Shown in pieces: positions 46,250 to 62,569 of a stretch of 64,000 bases of DNA. Numbering within the stretch: position 1 is the stretch's first letter; every line of letters starts with the position of its first letter. Source of the stretch: Cladocopium goreaui (Eukaryota; Sar; Dinophyceae; Suessiales; Symbiodiniaceae); assembly GCA_947184155.2 (NCBI GenBank), contig CAMXCT020006224.1, positions 106,212 to 170,211 on the forward strand. The letters are read 5' to 3'. The position numbers and the translations under genes were made by a program. The notes beneath the pieces are model-generated. The model did no database searches. It was not told where the DNA came from and saw only the letters and a list, made by a program, of their open reading frames with translations.

Positions 46250-46853
46250 CTCAACCAGGAAAATAGATGGTGATTTATGTGGGACAAATGGGGACTTACC
46301 TTAATGAGTTCATCATGGGTAAGTTGGTCTATGACTAGGCTAAGTGTTGGAATCTGTTGGAGGTGCGGTGGATATTTACACTCATGTGTATATATATATA
46401 TAAATAAATATAAATAAAATTATATAAATAGTGTTATATTGTGATACGGGTTCCCTCTTGTATGTGCGTAGTATTTGTGGGGAGGACATCAATGGGGATA
46501 GAAGTTGGGATATGACAAATGAGCAATGTGTGTTAGTTTGAAGTTTATTGACGAGATGAAATGTGTGAATGTTAATCTTTCTTCATATGGCTATGGGTAA
46601 AAACCCTGCACGCCTGTGAAAAAAAAGTCAATGGATGTTCATCCCCATACAAATATGGTCTGACCCATCCCCATTCGCAACTATGGAAAAATAGTGGTTT
46701 GTCCTTTTGTACACCTCCCGTGACAAACATTGGTCGATTGGGATCATCATCTAAGATAAGATAGACAACCGCAAAATGTCCGAACCAGCAATAGTGTAGT
46801 CTTGTGTACTTAGTGGCTAGATATATAGATATAATATATATATATATATTGTC

Positions 46854-47716
46854 GGTGCCGGAATTATAGAACGGAAGTTGAGGAGTACGAAGGTACGGTT
46901 ATTTACCGTACCCTGTTGTTCTATAATTCTGTTTTCCTCGGACGGTAGAAAAAAACGTATCTGAATTTACTCCTAACTTTTTTCGTCGTTCTATAATTCT
47001 TGTCGGAGCGCTGTTGTTCTATAATTCTGTTTTCCCCCATTTTTCCCACATTTCCCATTATCCTCATGTTATCCTCATTTTATCCTCGTTATCTCATCAA
47101 ATCCTCATGTTTATCATCATTTTATCTTCATTTCCTTATCAAATCCTCATTAAATCCTCATTAAATCTTCATTTTATCATCATTTCCTCATCAAATCACC
47201 ATTAAATCCTCATTTTATCCGCGTTTTATTATCATTTCCTCATAAAATCCTCATTTTATCTTAATTTTATCCTCATTTTCTCATCAAATCCTCATTAAAT
47301 CCTGATTAAATCTTCATTTTATTTTCATTTTATCTTTATTTTATCATCATTTCCTCATCAAATCCTCATTTTATCCTCGTTTCCTCATCAAATCTTCATT
47401 TTATCTGCATGTTTTCTTCATTTCCTCATCAAATCCTCATTACATCCTCATTAAATCTTCATTTTATAGATTGTATATGTACAAATATGCAGTAAATATC
47501 ATGTTAATGCCAGAAATTATAGATCGGAGCCAGGAGTAATTTAATTATAGAACGGGGAAATTTAATTATAGAACGGGGAAATTTAATTATAGAACGGATC
47601 CCCGTTCTATAATTAAATTTCCGGACTCCGCGCGGAATCGGAACCCGGAGGGGTACAAAGGTACGGTATTTTACCGTACTTTTGTACTCCTGGCTCCGTT
47701 CTATAATTCTGGCACC
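46854..47716. mobile_element. Nested foldback/TIR element cluster
   Basis: The outer ends GGTGCCGGAATTATAGAACG (46,854) and CGTTCTATAATTCTGGCACC (to 47,716) are inverted repeats with one mismatch over 22 bases. The motif TTCTATAATT or its complement appears about ten times inside. There are two hairpins with GTACGGT/ACCGTAC stems, at 46,892-46,912 and 47,653-47,687. Three tandem 21-base units (47,541-47,600) run into a perfect 21-base stem (47,577-47,597 with 47,602-47,622). A TCCTCAT array occupies the middle. There is no coding potential. It is flanked on both sides by TA microsatellite. Confidence 0.82.
47041..47467. repeat. TCCTCATTAAATCCTCATTTTA tandem array
   Basis: About 425 bases of 7-28-base units built from TCATCAAATCC, TCATTAAATC and TCATTTTATC. 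It is almost purely C/T/A on plus, a strongly strand-asymmetric minisatellite inside the foldback cluster. Confidence 0.9.
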
Positions 47717-48806
47717 ACCTGTAAATATATATATATATGTATATACATACATATTTGAGAGTATTCATGTAAGCTAAAATTGCTACAAATACCTTGAACC
47801 AATTGAGTAAACTGCATCAGCACAAGATGATGTTCAATCCTGGGTCATACTGAATCAACATCTCTCCAGATGCATCCACAAAATGGAAAATCCATGAAAA
47901 TCCCCTATCAATGGAGGTTTACAGCGGAGAAAACAACATGTTTCAATGGAACAGTTAGTTCCAGTTAGCAAGCTAACTGACCACACTAGGTATAACATGG
48001 TACAATGTGCTTCACACAATAACAAACCATCCCCAAATCACCACAGTCATAGGTGGTTTATTATTGTTTTACCCACATTACTGCATCAATACTGCAGTAA
48101 ATGATTGAAGTGGTTGGCAATTGATGTGCTTGCTTGCGCCACTCCTTGAGGTGATGTGGGTGGTTTCCCGGGTGAGTTTCTTGGGGTCATATCAAGCTGT
48201 AATGCCCTGCCGCAAAATGGGTATAAAGAGGTGCCATTGAAATATATCACCCAAATGTTTGTATATTTTGTACATGCTCCATGTGAGGAATAGGTCAATA
48301 GGTATCTACATGTGGGCTAAATGTAGATAACTCTTCCAGCACCATGTTTCGTATCTGTGTAAAACCCCAGGATCAACGACAGACATGACACCGTCTGCTT
48401 CCAATGCGTCGGCGGAGAGCCTGGGTCCGTCTTCAGGATCACCTCGTGGCCTCAAAATCGACGATTTTCAGGGGGGTTGCGAAGGAAGGAAAGGATCTAC
48501 CCTCCGGCAATGGAGGTTTATAGCTGGGAAAATCATCTAGAAATGGATGGTTTTAATGAGAAAATTGTGGTTCTAATGATTTCTAATGGGACATGGCCAA
48601 GCTAAATGGAGGTTTATAGCTGGGAAATCATCGAACTCCGGGGGAATTTTCCAGCACACTGTCACCTTTGACATCTAGCCACTGCTAGGGCGGGGTGACC
48701 TGTCAAGTGGTTGCCCATAGTTAGCTTAAGTTGGTAAAGTTGGTTAAACACTAGGCTAACTTAGAATTATGATGATTTATGGTGGATATGAATCATCTAC
48801 AGTTTT

Positions 48807-48936
48807 TTTTTTCTATTTGCTGTGCGTCAAAGAGTTGATCTCTTGCTGCAAATGCAAAGCGCACCCCTTCGCACGCTAATTGGATACAAAAGACATGTTG
48901 CTACCAATCTAGCACTACACCTCGATGTTCCAGTCA
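48807..48936 (-). other. Retroelement 3' untranslated region and A-tract
   Basis: After the stop of the last ORF piece, about 120 unique bases lead to AGAAAAAAAAA on minus (plus TTTTTTTTTCT at 48,807-48,817). A short 3' A-tract is what target-primed reverse transcription of a LINE would leave. Beyond it the sequence returns to AT-rich intron with GAATCATCTACAG on plus. Confidence 0.6.
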
Positions 48937-51510
48937 TCATCGCCCCTGAAAGTCAGGCCTGTACGTAGGAAAGTCATAAATGGGCGAGCTCTCAGTGGCT
49001 GCTTCATGCAGCCATTGATGCAAGGACAAATCGTCCACTGTACAGTTGATGACCTTATGGGAACGCATCGAGGTTTCGAATTGATCTGTGAAAGCCCGTG
49101 CTAACGCACGGCAAAATAAGGGAGGATACTCTTTGCATGCCGCAGTATTGAAGCGCCCCTGCTCATCTACACCTTGTGCAACTTTGACAGGGTATTTCAG
49201 CGTTGGATCTACACACACGTACATGGACTTTGCCAACGACGGTAGTCGGATGCTCAACAGCCCTGTCGGTTTGGGGGTGGCACTCCCCCATCTCCATTGC
49301 GCAAAGGTTTGTAACTTGCAGTCAGGATCTTTACGCAGCAATTCAACTAGCGCAGAGCGCCAGATGCTTGCCTTCTCTTCATCCTCCGGGCATGCTGGGT
49401 GTTCACTCAGGAATACACCGCCTGTGGCTAAATGAAGCACCGCAATGAACAGGGTTTGCAACGAAAATTCCGTTCCTTGTCTACACTGGCGGAGTTCTTT
49501 GACGGTCAGCATGGCGAGCCCAAAGAGTCGGCTGGCTGACCGGAGCGGTCTGGGCCAACTTCTGTGCTCGTTTTGTTCAGGCGGGGGCAAGTGTCTGGCA
49601 GCAGAGAATGTTTCACACGGTGCCCCAGCCAATGTGGCTGAGACTGCTCCACTCTCATAAAGTGCCACCAATTTCTGCCAGGAGATAGCCTTGACATGCA
49701 AGTTTCCATAGGCTTGAGACACCGCCGTATCCATCGAGAGGATAGTAATCCTCGCACCTCTGTGGTTGGCCCATTGTGCAAGCCAATAGTGGACGTCCTG
49801 CTGACGTCTTCGTCCACTGAAAAGGTGTACCACGAGGAAATGTGGCTCACCACCTCGCAGCAATATAGGGATGGGCTGAGTGGGCAAACATTGGTCCCAC
49901 TCCAGTGTTCTCAGCCGTTCATGCCAAGCAGTTTGATCTTCAAATCTCATCACCACGTGCCCCGCTGCAATTTGAGGCCGGGTCCCTGCAGGCGGTTTCA
50001 CAACCCGATGTGGGTGATCGGGACCCTGTGCTAGGAGAACCTGGATGCGCTGGCGCAGAAAACTTACTCTTCTCCGATCAGCCGTGGTGGAGAAGTCCTG
50101 TGCAATCTCTGCAAAGGCCTCATCAGCAATGTACTCAGCTTCGCCATCATCAAAGCTGGCAATCACGTCACCCAAGTCTGTTTGTCCCCACGCCAGAAAA
50201 CATCGCTCAATCCATGTGTCAAAGCAGGCTTCCCAATGTTCCTCTGGCTTGGCCAGGTGGGCCTCCAATGTCAGCATGACTACTTCCATCCATCGCTCTG
50301 GCAGAGCCACAATTGCCTCAGCATCGAAACCTGCTGCTTGGAAATCAGTCAACCAGCGTTGGGTACATGCGCGCAGGTTTGCATAAAACTCAGCACGTAT
50401 CTGTTCCCCTTGCTGGGGTTCAACCGCCGTTGCAAGTCTCTGCTCAATTTGCATGATCTCTTCTTCACATCTCACAATATCTGCCGTGCGCTGGTCTTTG
50501 TACAAGGGCTGAGGTCCCTGCGCTTGGATCCAGTTGGCACGATTCAGCCCTGCCAATGAGTTTGGCATTGTAATCCTGTGATAGTCAGCCTTGAAACCTG
50601 CACTCATGAGTGCTTGGAAGCATTCATTGCGTCCTGTGCGTCTTGAAACATATGCCAAATGTTGCTGCAGACGCTGTGTGGACCAAAAATGCTTCATGCA
50701 CGCTGGGCAGGTGGCCCCTTCTAAAAGATCATGCTCTACTGAGAAAACTTGATGTGTTTTCCGCTGATGCGTAGCAAGGCCAACGGCAGTGGTGAATGCC
50801 CTGCCGCAACTGCATTGGTGATCTGCATGCCCAAACTCAAAATTCAGTTCATGTGGCTTAGGGGTCAGTACCCCTCCCGCTCGTTCAATGGCCTGAAAAA
50901 TTCTGCGGTGCCATCCGTGAACTTCAATCATCATTGCCTCCTGCATGACATGCCGCTTGCTGAGTCTTTTTAAAAGGGCTTTCCAACCTGGTCCTCCCTG
51001 CTGCCAATGGTCAATGAGGGTTGTCAAATCTCTTGTCCATATGTCCGGGACAGCTTTGGCATCAAGCTTGTGAAGCCACTCAAGGTCAGCAAAAACACCA
51101 TGGAGCCAAGAATTAGGGACATCACTAAATTCTCTATGGAGCATGTGGTGCAAAAAGGCTGGCCCATGTTGAAAAACCTTCTGCGCAAAAAGGAGTCGAT
51201 CTTGTGCAATGCGTGCTCGTGCATCCAAACATTGTGCAATGGCAAAAACCTGAGCATTGGTCGTATGTGATGAATCCTGGTGGTGAGTCAAGCCCAAAAT
51301 TTTGCGCAAGCATTTGGTCACAACTGCATTCAATTTCTCAATCTGACGAGGGCTAGGCGTAGGCCAGGCACCGAGGCCAAAGAATAATTTTGTGCCTACC
51401 AGTGCATGAAATAAGCGGAAGCGCGTTTTCACTGCAATGTGGCGGTTGCAAAGCACTGTGCGGGATAACTGAGTGAAAGCAGTGTGAGCTTGACCGATAC
51501 GATGCTTCAT
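48937..51510 (-). CDS. Retroelement ORF2 3' part: RT thumb, zinc fingers, methyltransferase-like domain
   Basis: 857 codons. Residues 1-75 (MKHRIGQAHTAF, then K-T-R-F-R-L-F) are the thumb/connector that follows RT in LINE ORF2. Residues 233-253 form a C-x-C-x12-H-x4-H finger, and 268-284 a second finger lacking its last histidine. Residues about 555-810 resemble a C5 cytosine methyltransferase: motif I-like HLFSGRRR (562-569), motif IV-like GAPCETFS with the candidate catalytic Cys632, motif VI-like SEHP (702-705) and motif VIII-like QWRWG-x4-KPT (738-749). The ATG overlaps the stop of the preceding frame (ATGA). Upstream codons in this frame (FYAADGSFQVE) look like true RT sequence, so the break is probably a frameshift rather than a real start. 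Confidence 0.82.
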   Translation of the reverse strand: MKHRIGQAHTAFTQLSRTVLCNRHIAVKTRFRLFHALVGTKLFFGLGAWPTPSPRQIEKLNAVVTKCLRKILGLTHHQDSSHTTNAQVFAIAQCLDARARIAQDRLLFAQKVFQHGPAFLHHMLHREFSDVPNSWLHGVFADLEWLHKLDAKAVPDIWTRDLTTLIDHWQQGGPGWKALLKRLSKRHVMQEAMMIEVHGWHRRIFQAIERAGGVLTPKPHELNFEFGHADHQCSCGRAFTTAVGLATHQRKTHQVFSVEHDLLEGATCPACMKHFWSTQRLQQHLAYVSRRTGRNECFQALMSAGFKADYHRITMPNSLAGLNRANWIQAQGPQPLYKDQRTADIVRCEEEIMQIEQRLATAVEPQQGEQIRAEFYANLRACTQRWLTDFQAAGFDAEAIVALPERWMEVVMLTLEAHLAKPEEHWEACFDTWIERCFLAWGQTDLGDVIASFDDGEAEYIADEAFAEIAQDFSTTADRRRVSFLRQRIQVLLAQGPDHPHRVVKPPAGTRPQIAAGHVVMRFEDQTAWHERLRTLEWDQCLPTQPIPILLRGGEPHFLVVHLFSGRRRQQDVHYWLAQWANHRGARITILSMDTAVSQAYGNLHVKAISWQKLVALYESGAVSATLAGAPCETFSAARHLPPPEQNEHRSWPRPLRSASRLFGLAMLTVKELRQCRQGTEFSLQTLFIAVLHLATGGVFLSEHPACPEDEEKASIWRSALVELLRKDPDCKLQTFAQWRWGSATPKPTGLLSIRLPSLAKSMYVCVDPTLKYPVKVAQGVDEQGRFNTAACKEYPPLFCRALARAFTDQFETSMRSHKVINCTVDDLSLHQWLHEAATESSPIYDFPTYRPDFQGR

Positions 51511-54044
51511 TTCAACTTGGAAACTACCATCTGCAGCATAAAATGTGCCTGACCAGTGGCTACCGTCAGCTGGTACTGTCTTCTCATCTCTGGTGCACCT
51601 GGTCCTCTGAAAGTCACTACAGCTGTCGTTTTCCCTTTTTGCATGTTCAGTTCGAACCCTCTCCTTTGGAACGTCTTGTGTATTTGTTGGAGGAGACGTT
51701 CAATTGCACCAGGCATCTCATCCGCATGGACAGTAAGCCACGGTATGGCAAGGTCGTCGCTCCAGACAATTGCTTCCATTTGGACATCCAGCTTGTGCAG
51801 CAGTCCTTGGTATTGCTCTTGTTGACATACCCAATCGTTGAGTTCGATGGTGATATCTAGCATTGCCACATGAAATACTACGTCCGCCAAGGGGCTCCCT
51901 GGACGGGTCCCTCTTCGGGTGCGTGTCATCCCGGGATGTGCTGACAGCACATGCCATGTGTGGGCATGCACATCTTTCAACAGATTGACAAGTCTCGCCG
52001 GTGCGCCCAAACGTTGGAGCAGGCAAGGAAATTCAAGCCATCTGTTCACCCCTAATGAAGAGCACCCGTTGCTCTCGAGTGAGTGCAGTAGAGCATCAAC
52101 ATCGTCAGTTCTTGCAATACCACAGACCAGTTCACGGATCAATCTATGGAAAGCGTTTGCCAGATCCACAAAGACTACTCCCATGCTGAGGTTGTGTTGC
52201 TGTGCGATACGGCTAAAGCATTGCAAACTCATGCGCCCGAATTGGACTTGCTGACCTCCAAATCCCCCAATCTGTCCAGCTGGCTTCAGGGGTGCAATGA
52301 CTTCAATCACTTTCTCACGCAATAACGCATGCAGTCTTTTGTAGATGGTAGGCAAAAGCATGATGCCCCTGAAATGGGCTGCCCTGGAATGGTCGTTCTT
52401 CTTTGGGATCACTGCCAAAATGCCTCCCTTCGCTTGTATGGGTTCTTTCTGCCAAATAAAGATTTTGAGGAAAAGGTCCCAACAGAACATGGCCAATTGT
52501 ACTGGGAACCTATGCAGAAGGCCCGATGGCAGCGGATCAAGCCCGGTTGCCTTGTGTGGCTGGGTGGCGCGAAATGCATTAATGAGCTGAGCACGAGAAG
52601 GCAGAGCATTTAGCTCACACAACGTTGTGTCACATGGCTGCGTGCTTTGGAAGGCGGCACATTCCTGGACCAACTCGTCAGGAGTGATCGAAACTCCAAC
52701 TTCAAGATCCTGGAAATATGGGTGCCACTGCTCTTCTAAATGCTCAAGCTGCATAGGGGAAATTTGAGTTTTCCGTGCTCTCATTTTAGGCAATGATCTT
52801 CGAATGACTGTCCAAAATTCCCGTGCCTGATGTGGGCTCGTGAGCTCACTTGCCTGATGTGCCAACCGGTCAAAGAAAATGGAATCATCTTTGCGGCATG
52901 CAGCAACTACCTGTTTACCCAATTGGCGAAACATGGCAAATGCAGTGGCGCATAGGTGGTCCTGCTGCTTCTGAAGAGTGCGAACTTCAGCATCGTTCAC
53001 TTCGTTATCTGGTCGTGTCCACGCATTGAAACACAGCCTCAACCATGTCAGTTTCTGGACACGCGTGCTCTCCCACATTTGGTTTCTCCAATGTTTTTTC
53101 TCTTTGACCAAATTCCACGTGGCAGCTGACATCGTGGTCTTCAACGGTGACCATGTTCGCTTGCGTCCAGGGATTTGCTTGAGAAGCTGTGCCTGGAGCA
53201 TGTGTGCGTGTGTGTGAACATCAACTTCCCATGAGACCTGCAAGGGCTGAAGGAATTCTAAATGGGATGCTTGGTCAAGATCTCGTTCATTCCTCTTGTT
53301 CAGCTTGACACTTCGTGGTTTGGCAAAAGGGATAATGTTCTTGGTCAGGGTGACAACTGCCAGTGCATGATCTTCTTTTACTGTTGACAAGTCGACCTGA
53401 TCACTGACATATGCCGTCAATGAATGACACTGCCAAGTCATGGGAAGTGCTATAAAATAATTCCGCAGCCATTTGCCTTGGTTGTGTCTCCATGTACCAC
53501 CTTCTCCCTCTTGGCAATGCTCAAATGTGGCAGGAAGCCACAGCGCATTCTGCTGCAGAAACTGTAGGAAATATTCTGATTTCTCAGTATCAATTTCAGC
53601 TTGCCATGGTCCAACATGTGGGGACGGATAAGTGCCTACACGGGCATTGGCATCGGCGAGAAGGATCCTGTCCCATGTGGCGTACTTGCGTGGGATGCTG
53701 GCATCCACTTGGAGCCACCAGGCTTCAATCTCTTTTTCTGCTGCTCCCGTGTGAGGTGCGTGGGCCGCAATCACAATACAGCGTAGCACAGGTGTACGCA
53801 CCCGGACAATAAGGAATCTGGGGTCTCGTGCAATCAGTGAAAAATGGCAGGAATGGAACACTACACCATTGTCATCTTTATTGTCCTCCTTGGTCCATCC
53901 GTGTGGGTGCTGTGTATTGAATCCTACAATGATACCGTAATGACCGGCATCCGTGGCGGCACTTCCAAACAAAAAGAAATTTTGGGTCATGAGCAGCATG
54001 GATTTTTCGCAAGCGTGTTTCTTGTAAGGCAAAGATATGTACAC
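51507..54044 (-). CDS. Retroelement ORF2 middle part: EEP endonuclease and reverse transcriptase
   Basis: 845 codons. Residues 30-230 are the endonuclease/exonuclease/phosphatase fold: AHAPHTG (94-100), LLADANARVG (128-137) and the final DH (225-226). Residues about 500-830 are reverse transcriptase: VFVDLANAF with catalytic Asp627, TRPGSPLADVVF (713-724), and VWSDDLAIP with Asp763-Asp764 (S-D-D instead of the common A-D-D). The first ~20 residues belong to the wrong frame; the correct N-terminal part of the endonuclease is in the preceding ORF, which overlaps by 167 bases. The last ~12 residues are also out of frame. Confidence 0.92.
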   Translation of the reverse strand: MYISLPYKKHACEKSMLLMTQNFFLFGSAATDAGHYGIIVGFNTQHPHGWTKEDNKDDNGVVFHSCHFSLIARDPRFLIVRVRTPVLRCIVIAAHAPHTGAAEKEIEAWWLQVDASIPRKYATWDRILLADANARVGTYPSPHVGPWQAEIDTEKSEYFLQFLQQNALWLPATFEHCQEGEGGTWRHNQGKWLRNYFIALPMTWQCHSLTAYVSDQVDLSTVKEDHALAVVTLTKNIIPFAKPRSVKLNKRNERDLDQASHLEFLQPLQVSWEVDVHTHAHMLQAQLLKQIPGRKRTWSPLKTTMSAATWNLVKEKKHWRNQMWESTRVQKLTWLRLCFNAWTRPDNEVNDAEVRTLQKQQDHLCATAFAMFRQLGKQVVAACRKDDSIFFDRLAHQASELTSPHQAREFWTVIRRSLPKMRARKTQISPMQLEHLEEQWHPYFQDLEVGVSITPDELVQECAAFQSTQPCDTTLCELNALPSRAQLINAFRATQPHKATGLDPLPSGLLHRFPVQLAMFCWDLFLKIFIWQKEPIQAKGGILAVIPKKNDHSRAAHFRGIMLLPTIYKRLHALLREKVIEVIAPLKPAGQIGGFGGQQVQFGRMSLQCFSRIAQQHNLSMGVVFVDLANAFHRLIRELVCGIARTDDVDALLHSLESNGCSSLGVNRWLEFPCLLQRLGAPARLVNLLKDVHAHTWHVLSAHPGMTRTRRGTRPGSPLADVVFHVAMLDITIELNDWVCQQEQYQGLLHKLDVQMEAIVWSDDLAIPWLTVHADEMPGAIERLLQQIHKTFQRRGFELNMQKGKTTAVVTFRGPGAPEMRRQYQLTVATGQAHFMLQMVVSKLK

Positions 54045-54633
54045 CTACATCGTGCAGCTGCTGCAAGATCGTTGCTTGTCTGGTTGGTCCAGCAATGGAT
54101 TCGTTCTTTGACTGATTGGTTCCTTTCAATGTGAGAACATTTCCTGTCGCTAGAACAAGTTGGAGTCTGCCTTCACCTCCGCTGATATCTGCCTCTGGTG
54201 GAAGAGCATTCTGCAGAATTGAGGGCGTTGGTTGGGTGCAGGATTTCGTCGGGAGCTGAATACGTGTTTCCAACCATTTGTCTGCATACTCATCGGCAAA
54301 CAGGAGCCACATCCATTCGCCGGCATCAATGGTAGCCTTGCAGAGGATTTGTTGGAAGAATGGAGCTAAATCGTGGGTAACATGGCCATGTGCCGCAAAA
54401 TGTGCCAATCCATCAACAAGCTCATTGCCTGGCTCTCCACGATGGCTCCTTACATGCCATCCTTTGCATTTGACATGAAATCTGGTTTCTACAAGCTCCA
54501 CCAGCGTTCGTGCACTCCGACCTAATAGCGGGTGTTGCATACATTTCCAGTTCCCCAGAAGTTGATTTCCTACTGTTTGGGAATCATAGCAGAACCAAAT
54601 TTCAGGCATTGCAAAATGGCTGCAAGCAAACAA
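53878..54633 (-). CDS. Retroelement ORF2 part: end of RNase H and start of endonuclease
   Basis: 251 codons, starting from a non-ATG codon inside the RNase H domain. CYDSQTVGN (15-23) supplies the third acidic residue, and VRSHRGEPGNELVDGLA (61-77) the H-x-x-x-x-x-N-x-x-x-D end of RNase H. After a linker, LVLATGNVLT and IFALQETRL give the first EEP motifs (N and E ligands). The frame is lost in the run AAAATTTCTTTTTG near 53,980 and the domain continues in the next ORF. Codons just upstream of the annotated start (AELHASIGAAKVAHDI) are in frame and supply the second acidic residue, so the piece truly begins near 54,690. Confidence 0.82.
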   Translation of the reverse strand: MFACSHFAMPEIWFCYDSQTVGNQLLGNWKCMQHPLLGRSARTLVELVETRFHVKCKGWHVRSHRGEPGNELVDGLAHFAAHGHVTHDLAPFFQQILCKATIDAGEWMWLLFADEYADKWLETRIQLPTKSCTQPTPSILQNALPPEADISGGEGRLQLVLATGNVLTLKGTNQSKNESIAGPTRQATILQQLHDVGVHIFALQETRLRKIHAAHDPKFLFVWKCRHGCRSLRYHCRIQYTAPTRMDQGGQ

Positions 54634-55583
54634 CTTGAGGATATCATGAGCGACCTTGGCAGCACCAATACTCGCATGCAGTTCCGCTGTATATGATCAG
54701 TGGGCGGCACTTGAGCGGACAGAATCCCCGCCTGGTACCATCGATGTCCACTTTTAATGAAAACAGCAATTGCAAGGCCTGCGTGATCAACATTGTTCTG
54801 AAAGGAGCCATCAAAGTAGATCCACATTTCTTGTCCGCCTTGGTCAATGTCCCAGACGGGCAGCTCCATCCAATGAAGACTCTCATACGGAATAACTACT
54901 TCTGCTGGTGGCATGAAAGACATGAGCATGAAATGAGTGTCAATCCATTCAAACGCATCAATGGCTGGCTTCATTTCAATCTGAATCATGTCCGGGTCTG
55001 CTGTGTCGTTTTCATCCAATGTTGGATCACTTGGTTTTTGTCGGACAGTCGCACTTCTCTGCAGGAATTGTATGCCTTCCATGCCTGGCCTCACGGGAAG
55101 AAACGATGGATTCCAATCCGGTTCAATCCTGTCTCTTTTGATCAGTACCACAATGTGGTCTCCATCGCTGCCAGGCACTCGTGTACCGATAGGGATGGTA
55201 AAGGAAGCATGTTGAAACGTACAATGAATGTGTTCGCCAAATCGTCGGATCTCTTCACTGTATCCTACTCTCTCAAGGACTTCCTCCCTGGTGATGTGTT
55301 CATGTGTAACAATTGCAGTCCGAAACGGGTGTCCATTGTGTACTGCATCATCAAACATCGTGATCAAGCTAGCGACTTGCGTTTCCGTCGGCTCTTGTAC
55401 CAGCAAAATGTGCGCAGCGACATCATGTTCCAGTGCAATTGGCGTCGGTTGGACAACAAAGAAGAAAACTGGCTTATTGGGTGCAATAACATCCTGCCAT
55501 GTTTGAGTCATCAAACGTTCCCATTGCATGAAATCTTCTTGCAAATGAACTTTCCGACAGTATCCGCATCTCAGTCGATTCAA
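54570..55583 (-). CDS. Retroelement ORF2 part: repeated module 3 and start of RNase H
   Basis: 337 codons. Residues 1-150 are the third copy of an uncharacterised module: FVVQPTPIALEHDVAAHILL, then ITMFDDAVHNGHPFRTAIVT. In-frame sequence upstream (TWYLSPGLNRLRCGYCRKVH) shows the module begins near 55,605. Residues 251-300 open the RNase H domain: WIYFDGSFQNNVDHAGLAIA with catalytic Asp258. The frame breaks at CATATACAGCGGAAC near 54,690. The last ~40 residues are out of frame. Confidence 0.8.
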   Translation of the reverse strand: MNRLRCGYCRKVHLQEDFMQWERLMTQTWQDVIAPNKPVFFFVVQPTPIALEHDVAAHILLVQEPTETQVASLITMFDDAVHNGHPFRTAIVTHEHITREEVLERVGYSEEIRRFGEHIHCTFQHASFTIPIGTRVPGSDGDHIVVLIKRDRIEPDWNPSFLPVRPGMEGIQFLQRSATVRQKPSDPTLDENDTADPDMIQIEMKPAIDAFEWIDTHFMLMSFMPPAEVVIPYESLHWMELPVWDIDQGGQEMWIYFDGSFQNNVDHAGLAIAVFIKSGHRWYQAGILSAQVPPTDHIQRNCMRVLVLPRSLMISSSCLLAAILQCLKFGSAMIPKQ

Positions 55584-55591
55584 GCCAGGAC

Positions 55592-58285
55592 TCAGGTACC
55601 ATGTCTGTACACTCGAGGTACGCTCTTCACCTTCTGCCCTCGCAGATGCGTGTTGATCCCTCGCAGATGCGTGTTGATCCCTCGGTCTTGCATGTGTTCT
55701 GGCAAGGTAGCAATAGGTGGGCGACCTGGTGTAAACTCAGCTGCATTCGCATTGAAGGCAAATGCATTGCAAGCAGAGCTCATGGTGTTCTGTTGCATGA
55801 AAGCGTTCTCATCCGTTTCTTCTCCATCTGATGTCCATGCTGGTAGTTGATGACGATAAATGTGGAGTTGCATGTTCCTTCCAGTTTCCAAATTAACTTG
55901 AGACAACAGACTCACCTCCTGTTGTTCGAGCCATAACCTGCATTGAACTCCGGGGTATGCACAGTCATCAGATTGGCCCAACATCTCAAGCACAACATCT
56001 TTTGTCACAGGGTTCGCACATGCAATTGCTGTTGAGAAGGGTGCGCCTTGACGTACAGCATTATCATACTTGGTCACAATAAGGCCAACTTGCGTCGGGT
56101 TCAGATGTTGATGCAGGAGAATATGCACTGCATTCAATGGGCTGCCTGGCGGCGTAGGGTGTACAATTGCAAAGTTGATGTCTTCGCCAGCATCTTCAAG
56201 ATCATGCCAGACTTTGCGCAAGTCTTGTTCCCATGTTGTGAAATCTCCTCCCAGTAGGACATTCCTTTGTTGGTCATTAAATGGGACATATATACCATCA
56301 ATGTACCAAGTATGAACTTCCAACATACGCTCCTGTGAAATCTCAACTCGCTGTCCCTGTTGTTGCCAGATGGGATGTAACCTCTGGATGAAGAGTGATT
56401 GATCTTCAAGGCGCATGGACAAGGTTGACATCGGCTGTACCAGTGGTCCAAGGTCAACTAACACCACAGATCCAAGTCCCCAATGCAGCTCATCGTCTGC
56501 TCGTTCTCCCGGTGATGGGATGACCATTTTGATCCCCTCTCCAGACCTGAAGGGTTCATACCACCTCTTGCCAGGGACGCCCCGATGAAGTGTGCATCTT
56601 CGACCTCTGCAGACTCTGTCAAGGTTTGCTCTACGAGTCAGATCCTCTGGTGAAATACCATGTGGAACAACGGCAACAGCATGAGCAGTGCCATCGAGGG
56701 TGAGTGCACGAAATTGGAAGTTCAGCAAGATCGGTGCTCTGATCTCATTAGGGTTCTGGTATACAATCAAATGCCCTATGGTCTGTTCAGTTGGCGCAGC
56801 AAGTGGCTTGGGAAAGACCCATGCAAAATGAACTGGCACATCACGCTGAATTTTGTCTCTCCATGCATGCTGAATGTCTTGTACCCAAAGATTGATGTGG
56901 GCATCCACCCGAACAACTCTCGAAACTTCACTGACACTTTCCGTGGAGCAATCTGCATACCAGGTAGTTAGATATGCTACTGGTCCTTCATCATCATTTT
57001 CAATCCATGCCCCATCACCAAAGAAAGTACCCATAGCACGCAACCAATGTGGCCATGGAATAACGCTTGGGTTGAAATTCAAAACGCAAGACTCATTGGT
57101 AATCTGCTGTGTGGTGTTAACAACGTCACTGCTGGATGCAGACTGGTTGGCTGCTGCGATTGGGCGTTGCATCAAATCTACCACATCAGAGTCATGATCG
57201 TCCGGCCTGCCAAATTCATTACGGATTTCATCTGAGTCAATGAGACTGGGTGAGACATCAGTCTCGGATTCAGCAGATTCCTCAGGTGCCTCCGGTGGGG
57301 TCGGAACATAATATCGGCTCCAAAAGGTTTCAACATCTAGATTGCGGCTTGCTTCAATCATGTCACGTGTGGGTATCTCGCAGTGCTGAGGCGGTGGAAC
57401 AACCACTTGTAGATAGTTGCCATGCTGCATTCTGCGTGGGAGGACTTCTTGTAAGGGCCATGTCATGCCTTCATGCTTGACCAAACATCTGTTATGTTCG
57501 AATCGGCAATATTCAAAAAGCTGAATCTGGATCAAGAGGGCTTGCCGTACCAACCATGCTGGGACAGGGATCACATGCCTACGGACTCTTGGTGCCGTTT
57601 GGAAATGTGCCTCTTGTGCCTGGCCACGTGTGACAACATCAATCATGACAAGAAAAGAGGGTTCACCGACCGGAATGTCTCTGGCAAATTGCACGATGAG
57701 AGGAACGATTCCGTCTGGTATGTCACTGGGTTGGGTTGTCATGTCATGGCAATCCAGCAACTCTACACGGTCCATCGCAAAATGGTGTGCCACCTCCCGC
57801 ATCATTACATGGAAATCAACCCAGTTCAGCATGGTGTGGATCGGAATGTCATCTAAATGATACAGCAAAACTGATTGTCTGTTGTGGTCACTTGATGGCG
57901 GTTGAGTATTTGGGTCATCTGGTGGTGTATCGCCAGAGTCCTCAGGATCTTCATCATGATCTTGGGAAGCATCTGGGTCACCTTCTGTTGTGGGTTCGTC
58001 ATCTTCATCCATTCCACCTGCAACACGTCCGAAGTCCCATGGTGGTGCTTCCATCTCATTATGATGGACAATGCGAGGTGGCTTTTGCATGCTTGCAAAA
58101 TGATCGGCTTCCTGTTCGTCTTCCTTGGAGCTCAACACGGCCAGCGGGACTGACAGCGGAGCACACTCAAGGTTGACACTGCGGCGGAGTTGGTCTATGG
58201 TGCATTGGACTTGTCCATGAAAGCAATGTGCAAGGGCGATCAAGGGCGCATGTTTGTTTGGCTGCATTTGTGCATAGAACATCAA
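55592..58285 (-). CDS. Retroelement ORF2 N-terminal part: acidic region and modules 0-2
   Basis: 897 codons; the first ATG is at 58,282. Residues 90-135 are acidic and low-complexity (DEDDEPTTEGDPDASQDHDE). A roughly 150-residue module then recurs: weakly at 141-297, then at 441-590 (TTWYADCSTES ... FAWVFPKPLA) and at 659-815 (TWYIDGIYVPF ... FAIVHPTPPG). A third full copy lies in the next ORF. Each begins with T-W-Y, has a W-x3-I/L-x2-(A/V)-W-x-D helix, an F-x-x-V-x-P-x-P strand and a G-x-x-(I/M)-x-(M/L) end. I do not recognise the family. A 21-base duplication near 55,650 doubles GINTHLR. The end is a frameshift near 55,620. This ORF shares its frame with ORF1, 220 bases upstream. Confidence 0.75.
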   Translation of the reverse strand: MMFYAQMQPNKHAPLIALAHCFHGQVQCTIDQLRRSVNLECAPLSVPLAVLSSKEDEQEADHFASMQKPPRIVHHNEMEAPPWDFGRVAGGMDEDDEPTTEGDPDASQDHDEDPEDSGDTPPDDPNTQPPSSDHNRQSVLLYHLDDIPIHTMLNWVDFHVMMREVAHHFAMDRVELLDCHDMTTQPSDIPDGIVPLIVQFARDIPVGEPSFLVMIDVVTRGQAQEAHFQTAPRVRRHVIPVPAWLVRQALLIQIQLFEYCRFEHNRCLVKHEGMTWPLQEVLPRRMQHGNYLQVVVPPPQHCEIPTRDMIEASRNLDVETFWSRYYVPTPPEAPEESAESETDVSPSLIDSDEIRNEFGRPDDHDSDVVDLMQRPIAAANQSASSSDVVNTTQQITNESCVLNFNPSVIPWPHWLRAMGTFFGDGAWIENDDEGPVAYLTTWYADCSTESVSEVSRVVRVDAHINLWVQDIQHAWRDKIQRDVPVHFAWVFPKPLAAPTEQTIGHLIVYQNPNEIRAPILLNFQFRALTLDGTAHAVAVVPHGISPEDLTRRANLDRVCRGRRCTLHRGVPGKRWYEPFRSGEGIKMVIPSPGERADDELHWGLGSVVLVDLGPLVQPMSTLSMRLEDQSLFIQRLHPIWQQQGQRVEISQERMLEVHTWYIDGIYVPFNDQQRNVLLGGDFTTWEQDLRKVWHDLEDAGEDINFAIVHPTPPGSPLNAVHILLHQHLNPTQVGLIVTKYDNAVRQGAPFSTAIACANPVTKDVVLEMLGQSDDCAYPGVQCRLWLEQQEVSLLSQVNLETGRNMQLHIYRHQLPAWTSDGEETDENAFMQQNTMSSACNAFAFNANAAEFTPGRPPIATLPEHMQDRGINTHLRGINTHLRGQKVKSVPRVYRHGT

Positions 58286-58504
58286 CTACATCCAAAAAAC
58301 GTGGCTTCTGAGAAGACTTTTGTGGCCGCCTGTGCTCACGGGAACTGGCCTGAGTCGCATTTTCCCCCATTGTCCCACACTCCAAAGAAAGGCTCAGCGC
58401 TCTTGTCTGGGCTTCCCATTCGCTACAAAATGTTGGTTCTTGTAGGATGGAGTGGGTCCATTTCAATACGATCAGGTGAGCATCTCCAGCCAAAGGCTCA
58501 CGCC

Positions 58505-59779
58505 CTAGGCACCAGCACTCTGAGGTCGCTTGATGCCGGGCTGGGCAAAAGGCTCCAATTGCCCAGAGCCAGGTAAGCCCGCAACGTCGGCTTGGCCATC
58601 TAGACGCGCCTTTTTGGATGCCTGTTCGCTGGCATGGATTGCCTCTGCCGCTTGGTGCAACTGCTCCAAGGTGGTCGTGAGGTTCTTCATCCCATCTTGC
58701 ATCTTCTGAGCGCTGTCCATTGCCTTTGATGTGTCGTCTTCTGAGACCAGATCCACTTCTGCTGTCCCACTTTCCCCATGTGATGTCGCAGCAAGGTCTG
58801 CAATCTCCTTGGAGGAGGCCAACTGTGCCTTTGCCTCTTGCAAAAGTTGTTGCGCCTCTGTAATCCTCGTCATTGCAGCATGTTCCTGGGCTTGGAATTG
58901 GCTCGTAAAGCCTTGCCATTGTGTCACGCTCAATGAAAGGAAGCTGCGCCATTGTAAATGCAATTGCGATCTGGCTTCGAAAGAGTCTTGCAATTCCTTT
59001 CGGGCCTTTATCAAATCTTTTAATGCAAGGTTCAATTCTTTGTTCTGCTCTTTCTCTTCCTTCACCTGAATGTTTTTCATTTCTTGCTGGACGTCTTCCG
59101 GTAGTGTGCCCTTGGATTGGTTCTTCCGCAGAGTGTCGATCAATGCCTTGTACTCCATCGGAATGGGTGCAGCCGGATTGTCCACTGGAACATTTGGGGC
59201 AGGCGTTTGGATGGTCTGTGCTGCCTGCATCCACGAAAGTCCCGATGCAATGGTTGGAACTGTGACCGCCGCCTCCGGTGGCGGGGGTGGCTGTGCAAAT
59301 TCCCCCCTTGGTGTCTGCGGCTTCTTGGGTCGTGGGCTTTTCCCTTTCCCCTTCTTCTTCCCCTTGCCTCCTGTCCTCGGCGAGGGGTGACGTGGCGATT
59401 TGGGCCACTGCTGATACTGCGCATTGTCTTGTCCTTGTTCTTGGTGCCATGACCTGTAAGAGACATTGTATCCATCTCCTACTTCCTGCCAATGTCCTCC
59501 ACAACTGTGACAGTGGTTGGCATGTTTTCCGTTCATGACCCTGCACCATGCGCATCTCCATCCTGCATTGTGTTTTCCACTTTCCGCCATTGCTAATTGT
59601 AGCCGGCGATTGATCACTTGACCAAAATTGGGGTCGCGTGAATGGTGTGTTTGCAATGTTTTCTTCACCCAACGAAGAGTTGCAATACCTCCTGTTCTCT
59701 GACCCCCTTTGATCTGCCACCACAGGAATCGCGCAAGAGCACGAGCCCTTCTCTGTCTTCTCCTCCACGTGGAAACCAA
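58505..59779 (-). CDS. Retroelement ORF1: Gag-like protein with RanBP2-type zinc finger and coiled coil
   Basis: An open frame of 424 codons. The first ATG in frame is at 59,590 (MAESGKHN), so the protein may be 361 residues. The finger W74-x-C76-x2-C79-x3-N83-x6-C90-x2-C93 fits the RanBP2 consensus exactly; such fingers bind RNA or protein, consistent with a nucleocapsid role. A basic KGKKKGKGK stretch follows, then a P/A-rich linker and a long E/K/Q/A-rich predicted coiled coil (about residues 225-400). Upstream sequence in this frame is open for another nine codons to a stop. A different frame there begins MRILVFLVALFSL, signal-peptide-like, probably by chance. Confidence 0.78.
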   Translation of the reverse strand: MVSTWRRRQRRARALARFLWWQIKGGQRTGGIATLRWVKKTLQTHHSRDPNFGQVINRRLQLAMAESGKHNAGWRCAWCRVMNGKHANHCHSCGGHWQEVGDGYNVSYRSWHQEQGQDNAQYQQWPKSPRHPSPRTGGKGKKKGKGKSPRPKKPQTPRGEFAQPPPPPEAAVTVPTIASGLSWMQAAQTIQTPAPNVPVDNPAAPIPMEYKALIDTLRKNQSKGTLPEDVQQEMKNIQVKEEKEQNKELNLALKDLIKARKELQDSFEARSQLHLQWRSFLSLSVTQWQGFTSQFQAQEHAAMTRITEAQQLLQEAKAQLASSKEIADLAATSHGESGTAEVDLVSEDDTSKAMDSAQKMQDGMKNLTTTLEQLHQAAEAIHASEQASKKARLDGQADVAGLPGSGQLEPFAQPGIKRPQSAGA

Positions 59780-60190
59780 TGCCGTCTTGACAAATCAATG
59801 AAAATAAAGCCACAAGGAAAACCAAAATACGCATCAAAATTGTGGGAACTGTCAATCGGTGTATGGCCACCGCAGAACCGTAAAAGTGAGGGTTGCAGGG
59901 CAAATCCAGTTCACAACCACCCACTAATTAGATCGTGAAATCCAAATAAATGTTCAAATTGCAAATGAGGTAGCGATTGCAGGGCGCACCAGTTAACAAC
60001 CGAACCTAAGCCCAACCGGTATGTAGTGGAGAGTTACAGGATGAAATCAACTGCAGTGCTCAAGCAATACAACACCGATGTGCAGCAATGAGAAACCAGG
60101 CTCCCACAAAGCGCTAGTCAGCGCAGATGAGGGGTAAAAAAAACAAATTGTAGGCATCAGGTACGACTTTGTAGTAGCTTCCCCGTGTCT
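59780..60190 (-). promoter_or_regulatory. Retroelement 5' region with direct repeats
   Basis: Upstream of ORF1 are two imperfect copies of a ~26-base sequence, TTGCAGGGCAAATCCAGTTC plus ACAACC on plus (59,893-59,918), and TTGCAGGGCGCACCAGTTAA plus CAACC (59,978-60,002), spaced 85 bases. Repeated 5' regions often carry the internal promoter in LINEs; that role here is inferred. The exact 5' end is not defined. Confidence 0.4.
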
Positions 60191-61377
60191 TGTTGATGTT
60201 TATTTCCCTTGATTTCCCTTCAATTCAATTCTACTATTGAAAACCCAGCATGGTGTAACCCCCGATGGGGTATGTACCATGAAGAGGGTAGGTAAGTGAG
60301 CGATCCATCGTCCAAACAATTTTAGGGGAATAGAATGGAATAATTCACCCATTTACGAAGCCGCAACTGGAGTGATAATCAGAATCATCCACTATGGCCG
60401 CAACTGGGGAGATCAGCACTCTTGAAGGCGGGCCAACAGTTATAGATCCACAGAACAGTTGGCTTATCCCATCTCCCCCTCGGATTTCCATGCAAGGAGC
60501 CAGTTTTACGCCTGAAAAAACATGTTTTTTGATGGTCTAATCACTATAATTACATTGGTTGGTGAAACGAGGAAAAAAACACCATGTCCCAGAGAGTTCA
60601 CCCATAGCTGGTTAAATCACCATGTTGTTCCATGTTTCATTGGTGAAATTCTTATTTTGTACACGTAATGTTTCTCTACAAGTACCGTTTTGTTATCCTA
60701 ATGTTCATCACGCATTCCATATTTTCATAATTACCCTATGGTAAACTAACGTAGCTATGGAAATAACAATTTTTAATCGGTAAATCATCAAACTATTCAT
60801 TGGCCATGGCTTCCATTTTGCACACTGTTGGTTTGCTCTCATTGTTTATGACCTTTGAGAGCCTATTCACGGTGGTGCCCCCCAGTGATAAGTTGGTTTA
60901 TAATCCCCTCATAGTCCTGTCTCCCTAATCAACCCTAGTTATTGGAGCTGTTTCAACCAACTTCGCTAACGAATTGGGCCCCCTGCCTGTGAAACAGGGG
61001 TTGGTAAATGTTCTAATAGAACATCACCCAACTATTGGAGATGCAATCTCCAACCAATACTTCAACTTGTGATGTTCAAAATCCCCTAAGCAGGAGATTT
61101 ACCAACTTCAATGCTATTTTGAGCCCCTCCAAAATCCCAGCTTGGGAGTGCATAACACTTATAGAAATGGGTCAAAAAAACAAAAAGATTATATAATGGA
61201 ATTTCCCCACTGAATTGAAAACCACAAATCCTAAGTAGAACACACACACACACATTTATACATATATACAGTACACATATATATATATGTAAAATCATGA
61301 ATATGGGTGATAATCCATGTGTTAATGTATCAGCCATATCCAGGATATATACTCCATAATCTCCATATATAATCCAC

Positions 61378-61458
61378 CAGGGCGCCAAAGGAGACGTCGA
61401 ACCAGAAAGCCACGCCCGCAGCATGGCCCCGACGCCAGGCACGAAAGCAAAGCTGCGC
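61378..61458 (-). CDS. PRMT-like exon: beta-barrel G-V-A-F-W-F-D-V-x-F
   Basis: Twenty-seven codons read AQLCFRAWRRGHAAGVAF, then WFDVSFGAL. The (H)-G-x-A-x-W-F-D-(V)-x-F motif is characteristic of the C-terminal barrel of protein arginine methyltransferases. The acceptor is TTTTTCAG/GCGCAG and the donor CTG/GTGGAT, both in phase 0. Removing the downstream 15.1-kb intron joins this directly to the last exon at 46.1 kb. Enzymes of this family transfer methyl groups from S-adenosylmethionine to arginine in histones and RNA-binding proteins. Confidence 0.72.
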
Positions 61459-62569
61459 CTGAAAAAATCGGCCCTGGCCTTTTGGGAGGACCATTTTTTG
61501 GCCCAAAAAAACGTGGGTTTTGACGGATAGATCATAGGTTTGACCGGGGTTGAATGGATTGGATTTCATGGAACTTTGAATGGACTTTTGATGGGTATAA
61601 AACATGGTTGAATGTGTATTTTTCTTGAAAAAAGTTGCACTCTTAATTAAAGTATACATTGATTTTTGTCGAATCCCATCCCTCAACATTAAACAGACAC
61701 CCATTGTATGGCCTCAAATATCTGTAAATCATGATGTAAATCAACTACTACATGATTTCTGCGGGGAGATGTCTAACAAAAGGATTATGCAACCTTCTAT
61801 TTTATCCTTTTTCCCCTTGGGTAAACTGACATAGTCAAAGGGTCCATGGCTTGGCCATATTCAATCCATATTGCGACTAAAACAAAAAACGGTGGACTAA
61901 AAAAAACACCACGATGCACATTGAACAAGCAAGGATCAGTTCCAACCAACTGAAAATGTGTGTGACCAGTCAAAGTGCTACTTGTTTTTTGCCAGAAACA
62001 TGACCAAACTTTGGTCTGGAATCAAGAAAATTCAAGAAACAACATATAAAAATCGCCGCATTTTTGCCCTCCTTCCTGCGATGCTCATCCGGAAAATACC
62101 TACAACCTCATCATATTACCATCAACGTTGTTAAATGTTGCAGTAACAAAAACTAATCAATAAATGAAACCATATCAATCTATATATATATATGATATAT
62201 ATGTATATGATATATATGATATATATGTATATGATATATATATATATATATGAGATTTTACCCAACAGCTCCACGCAAAGCTCAAAGAAGTCAGGGTGAG
62301 AGGCCCCTTGTGCGAGTCAACCCATCTAGTCTGAATGGTCCTACTGGGTCAGAGCATGGCACCCCATGCTGTAGAAAGTGTGTCCCCACATCCAAGTTCG
62401 TGTCAAAGTTTCGTCAAACCCACAGCTGTGAAACATCATGTGGTAGCAACACTGCAGCTTTCCACCTCAGAACGCTGGAATTAGCTCTGTTCTTTGTCGT
62501 TCTCTCACGGAAAAATCGGTCGCACCGCCGTGTGTTCTCTGAGGCCTGCAGTTCACGTGTTCCTTCCAC

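Follow-up and report, generated by a model that had tools for sequence, protein, structure and literature searches.

A putative divergent C5-methyltransferase-like domain at the C-terminal end of a LINE-type polyprotein in the dinoflagellate Cladocopium goreaui

A methyltransferase-like domain downstream of a reverse transcriptase

The stretch of DNA analyzed here, hereafter the window, comprises 64,000 nucleotides of contig CAMXCT020006224.1 from the dinoflagellate Cladocopium goreaui and carries on its minus strand a retrotransposon of the long interspersed nuclear element (LINE) type. We consider it likely that the 3' end of the sequence coding for its polyprotein encodes a divergent C5-methyltransferase-like domain, whose closest-looking counterparts are phage proteins with a G-x4-KPT block. 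A first-pass annotation had read HLFSG, GAPCETFS, SEHP and QWRWG-x4-KPT as motifs I, IV, VI and VIII of C5 cytosine methyltransferases, at the C terminus of a LINE-type ORF2. All four are present, in this order, in the minus-strand open reading frame (ORF) 48937-51699 (Table 1), and the label LINE-type ORF2 is right since a reverse transcriptase (RT) is encoded just upstream. The arrangement is C5-methyltransferase-like too, except that the last block is G-x4-KPT and not the QRxR of a canonical motif VIII. Residues are numbered below over the 920 codons from stop to stop; the 857-codon count of the earlier annotation starts at Met64, and its Cys632 corresponds to our Cys695.

The steps from Phe627 to Cys695, from Cys695 to Glu766 and from Glu766 to Lys810 are 68, 71 and 44 residues long, compared with ~63, 38 and 44-46 for the equivalent steps in M.HhaI (counted manually on a sequence that gave a full-length match to the PDB). 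The surplus over M.HhaI falls between motifs IV and VI, where a conserved PRPLRS...REL-x-Q segment forms part of it. No second copy of the domain was found in the window, apart from one 25-residue row at E 0.8.

Table 1. Coordinates of the features in the window.
Feature	Position	Strand	Remarks
ORF with end of RT region, zinc finger and methyltransferase-like domain	48937..51699	-	920 codons, stop to stop
C5-methyltransferase-like domain	49054..49866	-	ORF residues ~612-882; ends in motif X-like KEYP-x-x-FC helix
Motif I-like block LVVHLFSGRRR	49804..49836	-	Residues 622-632
HLFSG	49813-49827	-	
GAPCETFS	49603-49626	-	
Candidate catalytic Cys695 in G-x-PCET-[FW]-[ST]-x-AR	49615..49617	-	Invariant in alignment
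SEHP	49396-49407	-	
Motif VI-like Glu766 of E-H-P	49402..49404	-	Invariant in alignment
Motif VIII-like block QWRWG-x4-KPT	49264..49299	-	QWRWG 49285-49299, KPT 49264-49272
C-terminal tail PDFQGR	48940..48957	-	
Reverse transcriptase	51624..52592	-	RVT_1, E 2.5e-5; PDB 8c8j
C2H2-type zinc finger	50653..50709	-	zf-C2H2_4, E 0.011
APE-type endonuclease-like region	53339..54150 (approximate)	-	Motifs by eye; split by frameshift in window copy
RNase H-like region, upstream of endonuclease	54381..54848 (approximate)	-	Split by frameshift in window copy
N-terminal polyprotein part, tandem TW[YF]...W modules	55592..58285	-	By eye

The domain is conserved throughout a large LINE group

We searched the 1.17-Gb host genome for further copies. 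First-look candidates were many and only the best were scored, the unscored ones being unproven. With the 920-aa ORF as a query, there were 2,729 candidates; the best 50 were scored and all 50 matched, 49 of them extending to the C-terminal end and three having an inner stop. The domain alone gave 2,524 candidates, and all of the best 111, which were scored, matched over the domain (11 with an inner stop, 32 inside open frames of more than 3,000 aa). Ninety of these 111 were aligned with the window to give 91 rows, in which the window copy is present twice (as WIN and as locus L220). The 21 unaligned matches include nine of the 11 with an inner stop, and the sample is therefore tilted to intact copies. 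In this alignment, Cys695, Glu766, His767, Pro768, Lys810, Pro811 and Thr812 occur in 91/91 rows and Asp657 and Phe627 each in 90/91, and two of the 90 aligned copies have a stop inside the domain. Leaving out the window's own locus, two copies with a stop and two short ones, we retained 85 copies plus the window (86 rows).

A search with the RT only gave 150 places in the genome. In 90 of the best 107, a listed domain lies 1.9-2.4 kb downstream in the same orientation. We fetched four of the other 17, and each contains the domain (in two the frame breaks within the slice, and one is truncated by the contig end). Two of the remaining 13 places, C1013 and C3792, have their listed domain in the same orientation but farther away, at ~5.7 and 8.1 kb, respectively. 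From the weaker 43 places we chose 16, in which the RT is 30-36% identical, and 16/16 match the domain profile, locus L326 only partially and two others with stops in the matched stretch. These lower-tier loci, minus L326, were joined to the 86 rows in a 101-row alignment, with the stops of the two loci retained as X.

Even with this addition, GxPCET, PR, EHP and KPT are each found in 101/101 rows, as are Q801, G805, K810, P811 and T812. The catalytic P-C of motif IV is thus present throughout, with a profile match at that block, and so is the Glu of motif VI, but within EHP instead of ENV or ENP. In the motif I-like block, H625, G629, R631 and R632 are each present in 100/100 rows having a letter there, the lower-tier variants being HLYSGRRR or HLYAGRRR. 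Conservation of the cysteine and of the motif VI acidic residue across copies, the check that the first-pass annotation had proposed, is therefore complete, with no loss of the cysteine seen, and the active-site-like residues are unvarying among the aligned copies. Together with the 111/111 genomic matches, these unvarying residues place the motifs beyond chance.

As for selection, the 85 copies form 3,570 pairs; synonymous sites are saturated in 3,474 of these, and another 78 have a Ks (synonymous divergence) outside 0.02-1.5. Over the 18 usable pairs, the median ratio of nonsynonymous to synonymous divergence (Ka/Ks) is 0.09, and none reaches 0.5. The domain is under purifying selection and maintained along active lineages, selection alone being no proof of catalysis, and it belongs to the standard make-up of a large group of dinoflagellate LINEs. 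A decaying relic is ruled out by the cysteine in 101/101 rows and by the Ka/Ks of ~0.09, even though the upstream frames of the window copy are broken.

Two side observations concern the family and its host. A PD[YF]Q-type peptide stands at or near the extreme end of the polyprotein in 29 of 32 copies (L220-L249, L311 and L312), preceded by variable residues. The 21-base dinoflagellate spliced leader has 172 exact matches in the genome, and its reversed control has none, as befits a dinoflagellate host.

Profiles place the domain nearest to phage KPT-type proteins

Since the sequence libraries were silent, we compared profiles instead. Phage proteins were fetched by a DNA pattern for YCxYG-x4-KPT, of which the G-x4-KPT part came from the window. 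This gave at least 120 loci in viral contigs; we read the first 80, found the peptide in all 80 and retained 73 proteins that were long enough to use. These phage KPT-type proteins display LFAGSR-like, SPPCT-x-FS, IENPRG and KPT blocks, and the two tested score above the PF00145 cut-off, one of them also matching PHROG_757 "DNA methyltransferase." Unguided alignment with hhalign and MAFFT puts the LINE domain in register with them across the blocks. The profile score against this set rises from 25.8 with one sequence to 31.0 with 86 and 36.4 with 101, the last of which beats all 400 column shuffles (at most 28.4) as well as the reversed profile (14.5). The 101-row profile scores 31.1 against ordinary DNA methyltransferases (DNMTs), for which the shuffles reach 25.6 at most. 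When this profile was used to rank 1,806 ORFs from the phage loci, the top 50 held 40 KPT-type proteins and three other C5 methyltransferases (base rate 13%), with an area under the receiver operating characteristic curve (AUC) of 0.964 for the former and 0.805 for the latter. Six control profiles, one reversed and five shuffled, gave AUC values of 0.365-0.61 for KPT-type proteins.

For the single window domain, 11 of 986 scored shuffles reached its score against the KPT set, and two of 1,020 scored shuffles (2,000 made) did so against ordinary DNMTs. An anchored test outside motif IV had a mixed result, with 21/1,000 for the KPT set (51 for the left side alone and 58 for the right alone) and 112/1,000 for DNMTs. 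Ordered-block tests at three information cut-offs yielded 0, 1,264 (a failure) and 106 of 4,000 against the KPT set, and 1, 0 and 4 of 4,000 against DNMTs. A model based on the domain-phage alignment appears to resemble DNMT3/DNMT1, a likeness that arises partly by construction; a single-sequence model of the domain was discarded.

Several results are mixed or weigh against the methyltransferase assignment. Without motif IV, the AUC of the profile is 0.878 for KPT-type proteins and 0.398 for other DNMTs, and without both motif IV and KPT it is 0.462 and 0.408, respectively. The profile signal is borne by these two blocks, and the KPT block also selected the phage set. In the ordered-block tests, motif VI was misplaced wherever it formed a block, and motif IV was too at one cut-off. 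A plain Foldseek search was unspecific, its 50 listed rows naming no C5 DNA methyltransferase. PF00145 matched neither the window ORF and its domain nor any of the 86 members; no methylase catalytic domain was found in any of the 86 with Pfam and PHROGs, or in the PDB with the 86-member profile, and PHROG models named methyltransferase matched 0/86 at E up to 1. Motif I of C5 cytosine methyltransferases, the site for S-adenosylmethionine (SAM), is F-x-G-x-G; this form is absent from the motif I-like block of the family, which is F-x-G-R-R-R in the 101 rows. Motif VIII Q-R-x-R is likewise absent, with QW-x-x-G-x4-KPT in its place. By the strict features tested, the domain is no member of PF00145 or PHROG_757, and it is unannotated by the libraries used.

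A few rows from these searches were taken as chance, namely a match of one member to PF22855, the N-terminal model of DNMT3A (E 0.068), other scattered Pfam rows among the 86 members, MBD4 rows from phmmer (best E 0.13), and haemagglutinin-esterase and NUG1 rows (E 0.8-1.6). Outside relatives were found neither with the domain as query in viral contigs and genome contigs nor with the RT in viral contigs. The PCET pattern occurs nowhere in the viral contigs and five times in the genome contigs, always in short chance frames. With tblastn, the domain gave nothing better than E 4 against phages and plasmids, and neither the ORF (E up to 1) nor the RT (E up to 0.001) had a match in phages.

Less likely readings: a nonmethylating module or an unrelated domain

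It is unlikely that the domain has a methyltransferase fold but does not methylate, acting instead as a structural or nucleic-acid-binding module. The missing FxGxG and QRxR would suit such a role, as would a CpG content in the element that is not depleted (see below) and the published LINE DNMT domain that, in the accessible text of de Mendoza et al. 2018 (PMC5890265), left yeast DNA unmethylated, a result its authors call inconclusive. Yet none of the 101 rows departs from Cys, Glu or KPT, and a fixed cysteine in a PC motif is hardly needed for binding alone. Moreover, FxGxG-like and QRxR forms are equally absent from the phage KPT-type proteins, which Pfam counts among the C5 methylases. 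We likewise find it improbable that this is an unrelated LINE C-terminal domain resembling methyltransferases in PCET and KPT by chance or convergence, as the silent libraries, the limitation of the signal to two blocks and the unspecific Foldseek search might suggest, because the order of a C5 methyltransferase is kept by the two blocks together with motif I, the acidic residue that follows the next strand, EHP and the KEYP helix, and the profile score is above 400/400 shuffles.

Possible activity and targets

Under the methyltransferase assignment, the domain is probably catalytic and probably works like PF00145/PHROG_757 enzymes. It would fold as a Rossmann methyltransferase and bind SAM, and Cys695 would attack cytosine with Glu766 assisting. 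Most likely, and on the simplest reading in cis, the domain would methylate the RNA of the element, its cDNA or the target-site DNA from within the RT complex during target-primed reverse transcription. Only a short stretch separates motifs VIII and X, so that the other parts of the polyprotein may provide the sequence specificity.

The first-pass annotation had also raised methylation of the element's own copies. For CpG sites, base composition counts against such self-methylation: the element, with an observed/expected CpG ratio of 0.60, shows no depletion when set against its flanks (0.61 over the left 48 kb and 0.56 over the right 3.5 kb), and the median for 60 domain slices is 0.69. The target may therefore be other than CpG DNA, or the methylation may not be retained, or the substrate may be RNA. 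CA/TG dinucleotides stand at 1.50 in 48900-59927 versus 1.23 in the left and 1.29 in the right flank, with CpG not lower, an excess that perhaps reflects codon use.

More tentatively, and as a possibility that we would not yet bet on, the family could be a second, unrecognised lineage of retrotransposon-borne pyrimidine-C5 methyltransferases, phage KPT-like, that was fixed at the LINE C terminus before the RTs diverged to ~30% identity and that modifies new copies or RNA within the reverse-transcription complex. If this were true and the ~2,500 first-look candidates held, few reservoirs of such enzymes would be larger, and the family could contribute to the unusual nucleotide chemistry seen in the DNA of dinoflagellates.

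Architecture of the element

The RVT_1 match (24.5 bits) is under the Pfam gathering score of 29.6 and covers residues 705-807 of ORF 51507-54044; with phmmer, the RT matches PDB 8c8j at E 0.0009 over residues 485-637. In the window copy, the RT is in a different frame from the domain, which implies at least one frameshift between the two. Several frame changes upstream show that this copy is broken there, and the domain's own frame is open. The relative G000:C5274 has an open frame of 4,297 aa. Two adjacent stretches of it, translated separately, are stop-free through the N-terminal repeats, the RNase H-like and endonuclease-like regions, the RT, the zinc finger and the domain; the frame begins beyond these two stretches. 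In this intact copy, the domain follows the RT and zinc finger in frame.

The C2H2-type zinc finger is below the curated cut-off both in the window and in the intact copy (E 0.0057), and by eye a second zinc finger apparently follows it. The endonuclease-like region has no Pfam match; it was read by eye from NVLTL, QETR, LLADANA and EDH, on what we take to be the motifs of that family. The RNase H-like region has acidic motifs by eye and matches NCBIfam PRK07708 at E 2.2e-4, far under the cut-off. As for the N-terminal part, no family matched it above cut-off; by eye, it contains some five or more tandem TW[FY]...W modules (e.g., TWYIDG...W and TWFVHH...W; also in L310:3-7931), which could be nucleic-acid-binding repeats. 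Upstream, the minus-strand ORF 58505-59794 displays a CxxC...CxxC ribbon similar to a RanBP2 zinc finger (Pfam E 0.98) and might encode an ORF1 protein. We found no long terminal repeats in 46500-62000 and no convincing target-site duplication at the element.

Elsewhere in the window, two 42-nt arms that are 86% complementary and 819 nt apart (46834-47736) flank tandem ATCCTCATT-type repeats and several TTCTATAATT(C)/(G)AATTATAGAACGG copies, which looks like a hairpin or a non-autonomous element.

Comparison with known methyltransferase systems

Cytosine methyltransferases of dinoflagellate retrotransposons, which the first-pass annotation had mentioned, are indeed published, but those described in the accessible text of de Mendoza et al. 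2018 (PMC5890265), who searched with Pfam models such as PF00145, differ from the domain reported here. SymbioLINE-Dnmt is alike in being a dinoflagellate LINE with a C5-methyltransferase-type domain, purifying selection and many copies. Its DNMT, however, is detectable with PF00145 and lies in ORF1, upstream of the RT, and CpG depletion is published for it, whereas the domain here, with its EHP and KPT, is PF00145-negative and at the C terminus of the RT polyprotein. Unlike in that arrangement, the RT match comes first here and the domain starts 1.9-2.4 kb beyond it, and the regions upstream of the RT have no DNMT hit in the window copy or the intact copy. PF00145 itself has at least 125 matches in the same genome (the best 123 of 2,685 candidates were scored), many in single ORFs of ~350-430 aa and many identically scored, as expected for SymbioLINE/DIRS-type DNMTs. 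There is only the faintest chance that the domain is that of SymbioLINE-Dnmt, despite the same kind of host and element and a genome also rich in PF00145 genes, an identity ruled out for the window copy by position relative to the RT and by the PF00145 tests, and none of the 125 PF00145 matches listed is near the listed RT places of the family (the closest pair on one contig is ~102 kb apart, such contigs having been picked out by eye). SymbioDIRS-Dnmt3, described in the same paper, resembles our element in having a methyltransferase domain and an RT in one ORF, but it is a DIRS element with a tyrosine recombinase and a Dnmt3 domain, whereas ours is LINE-type, with an endonuclease-like region and no detectable Dnmt3.

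The accessible text of PMC12344493, PMC9998398 and PMC6338049 makes no mention of such a C-terminal LINE domain, and a literature search whose coverage left out most subscription journals found no title or abstract describing one. Capture of methyltransferases by dinoflagellate retrotransposons is thus known, but for PF00145-type domains. With an invariant C-terminal methyltransferase-like domain invisible to PF00145 across diverse LINEs, such domains would be more numerous and more varied in these genomes than has been estimated, and modification would be linked to the RT machinery and not to ORF1.

The phage KPT-type proteins, assigned to PHROG_757 and weakly to PF00145, share with the LINE domain the order LF[AS]G-x-R, an acidic residue after strand 2, PC-x-T-[FYW]-S-x-A, E-[NH]-P, G-x4-KPT and an [IY]-P helix, as well as a short stretch between motifs VIII and X. 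They carry IENPRG and YCxYG-x4-KPT; the LINE domain has EHP for ENP and GRRR after motif I, where the phage proteins mostly have LFAGSR. The LINE domain, in contrast to them, has ~35 additional conserved residues between motifs IV and VI (PRPLRS...REL-x-Q), lies within a LINE polyprotein of more than 4,000 aa and has no PHROG or Pfam match.
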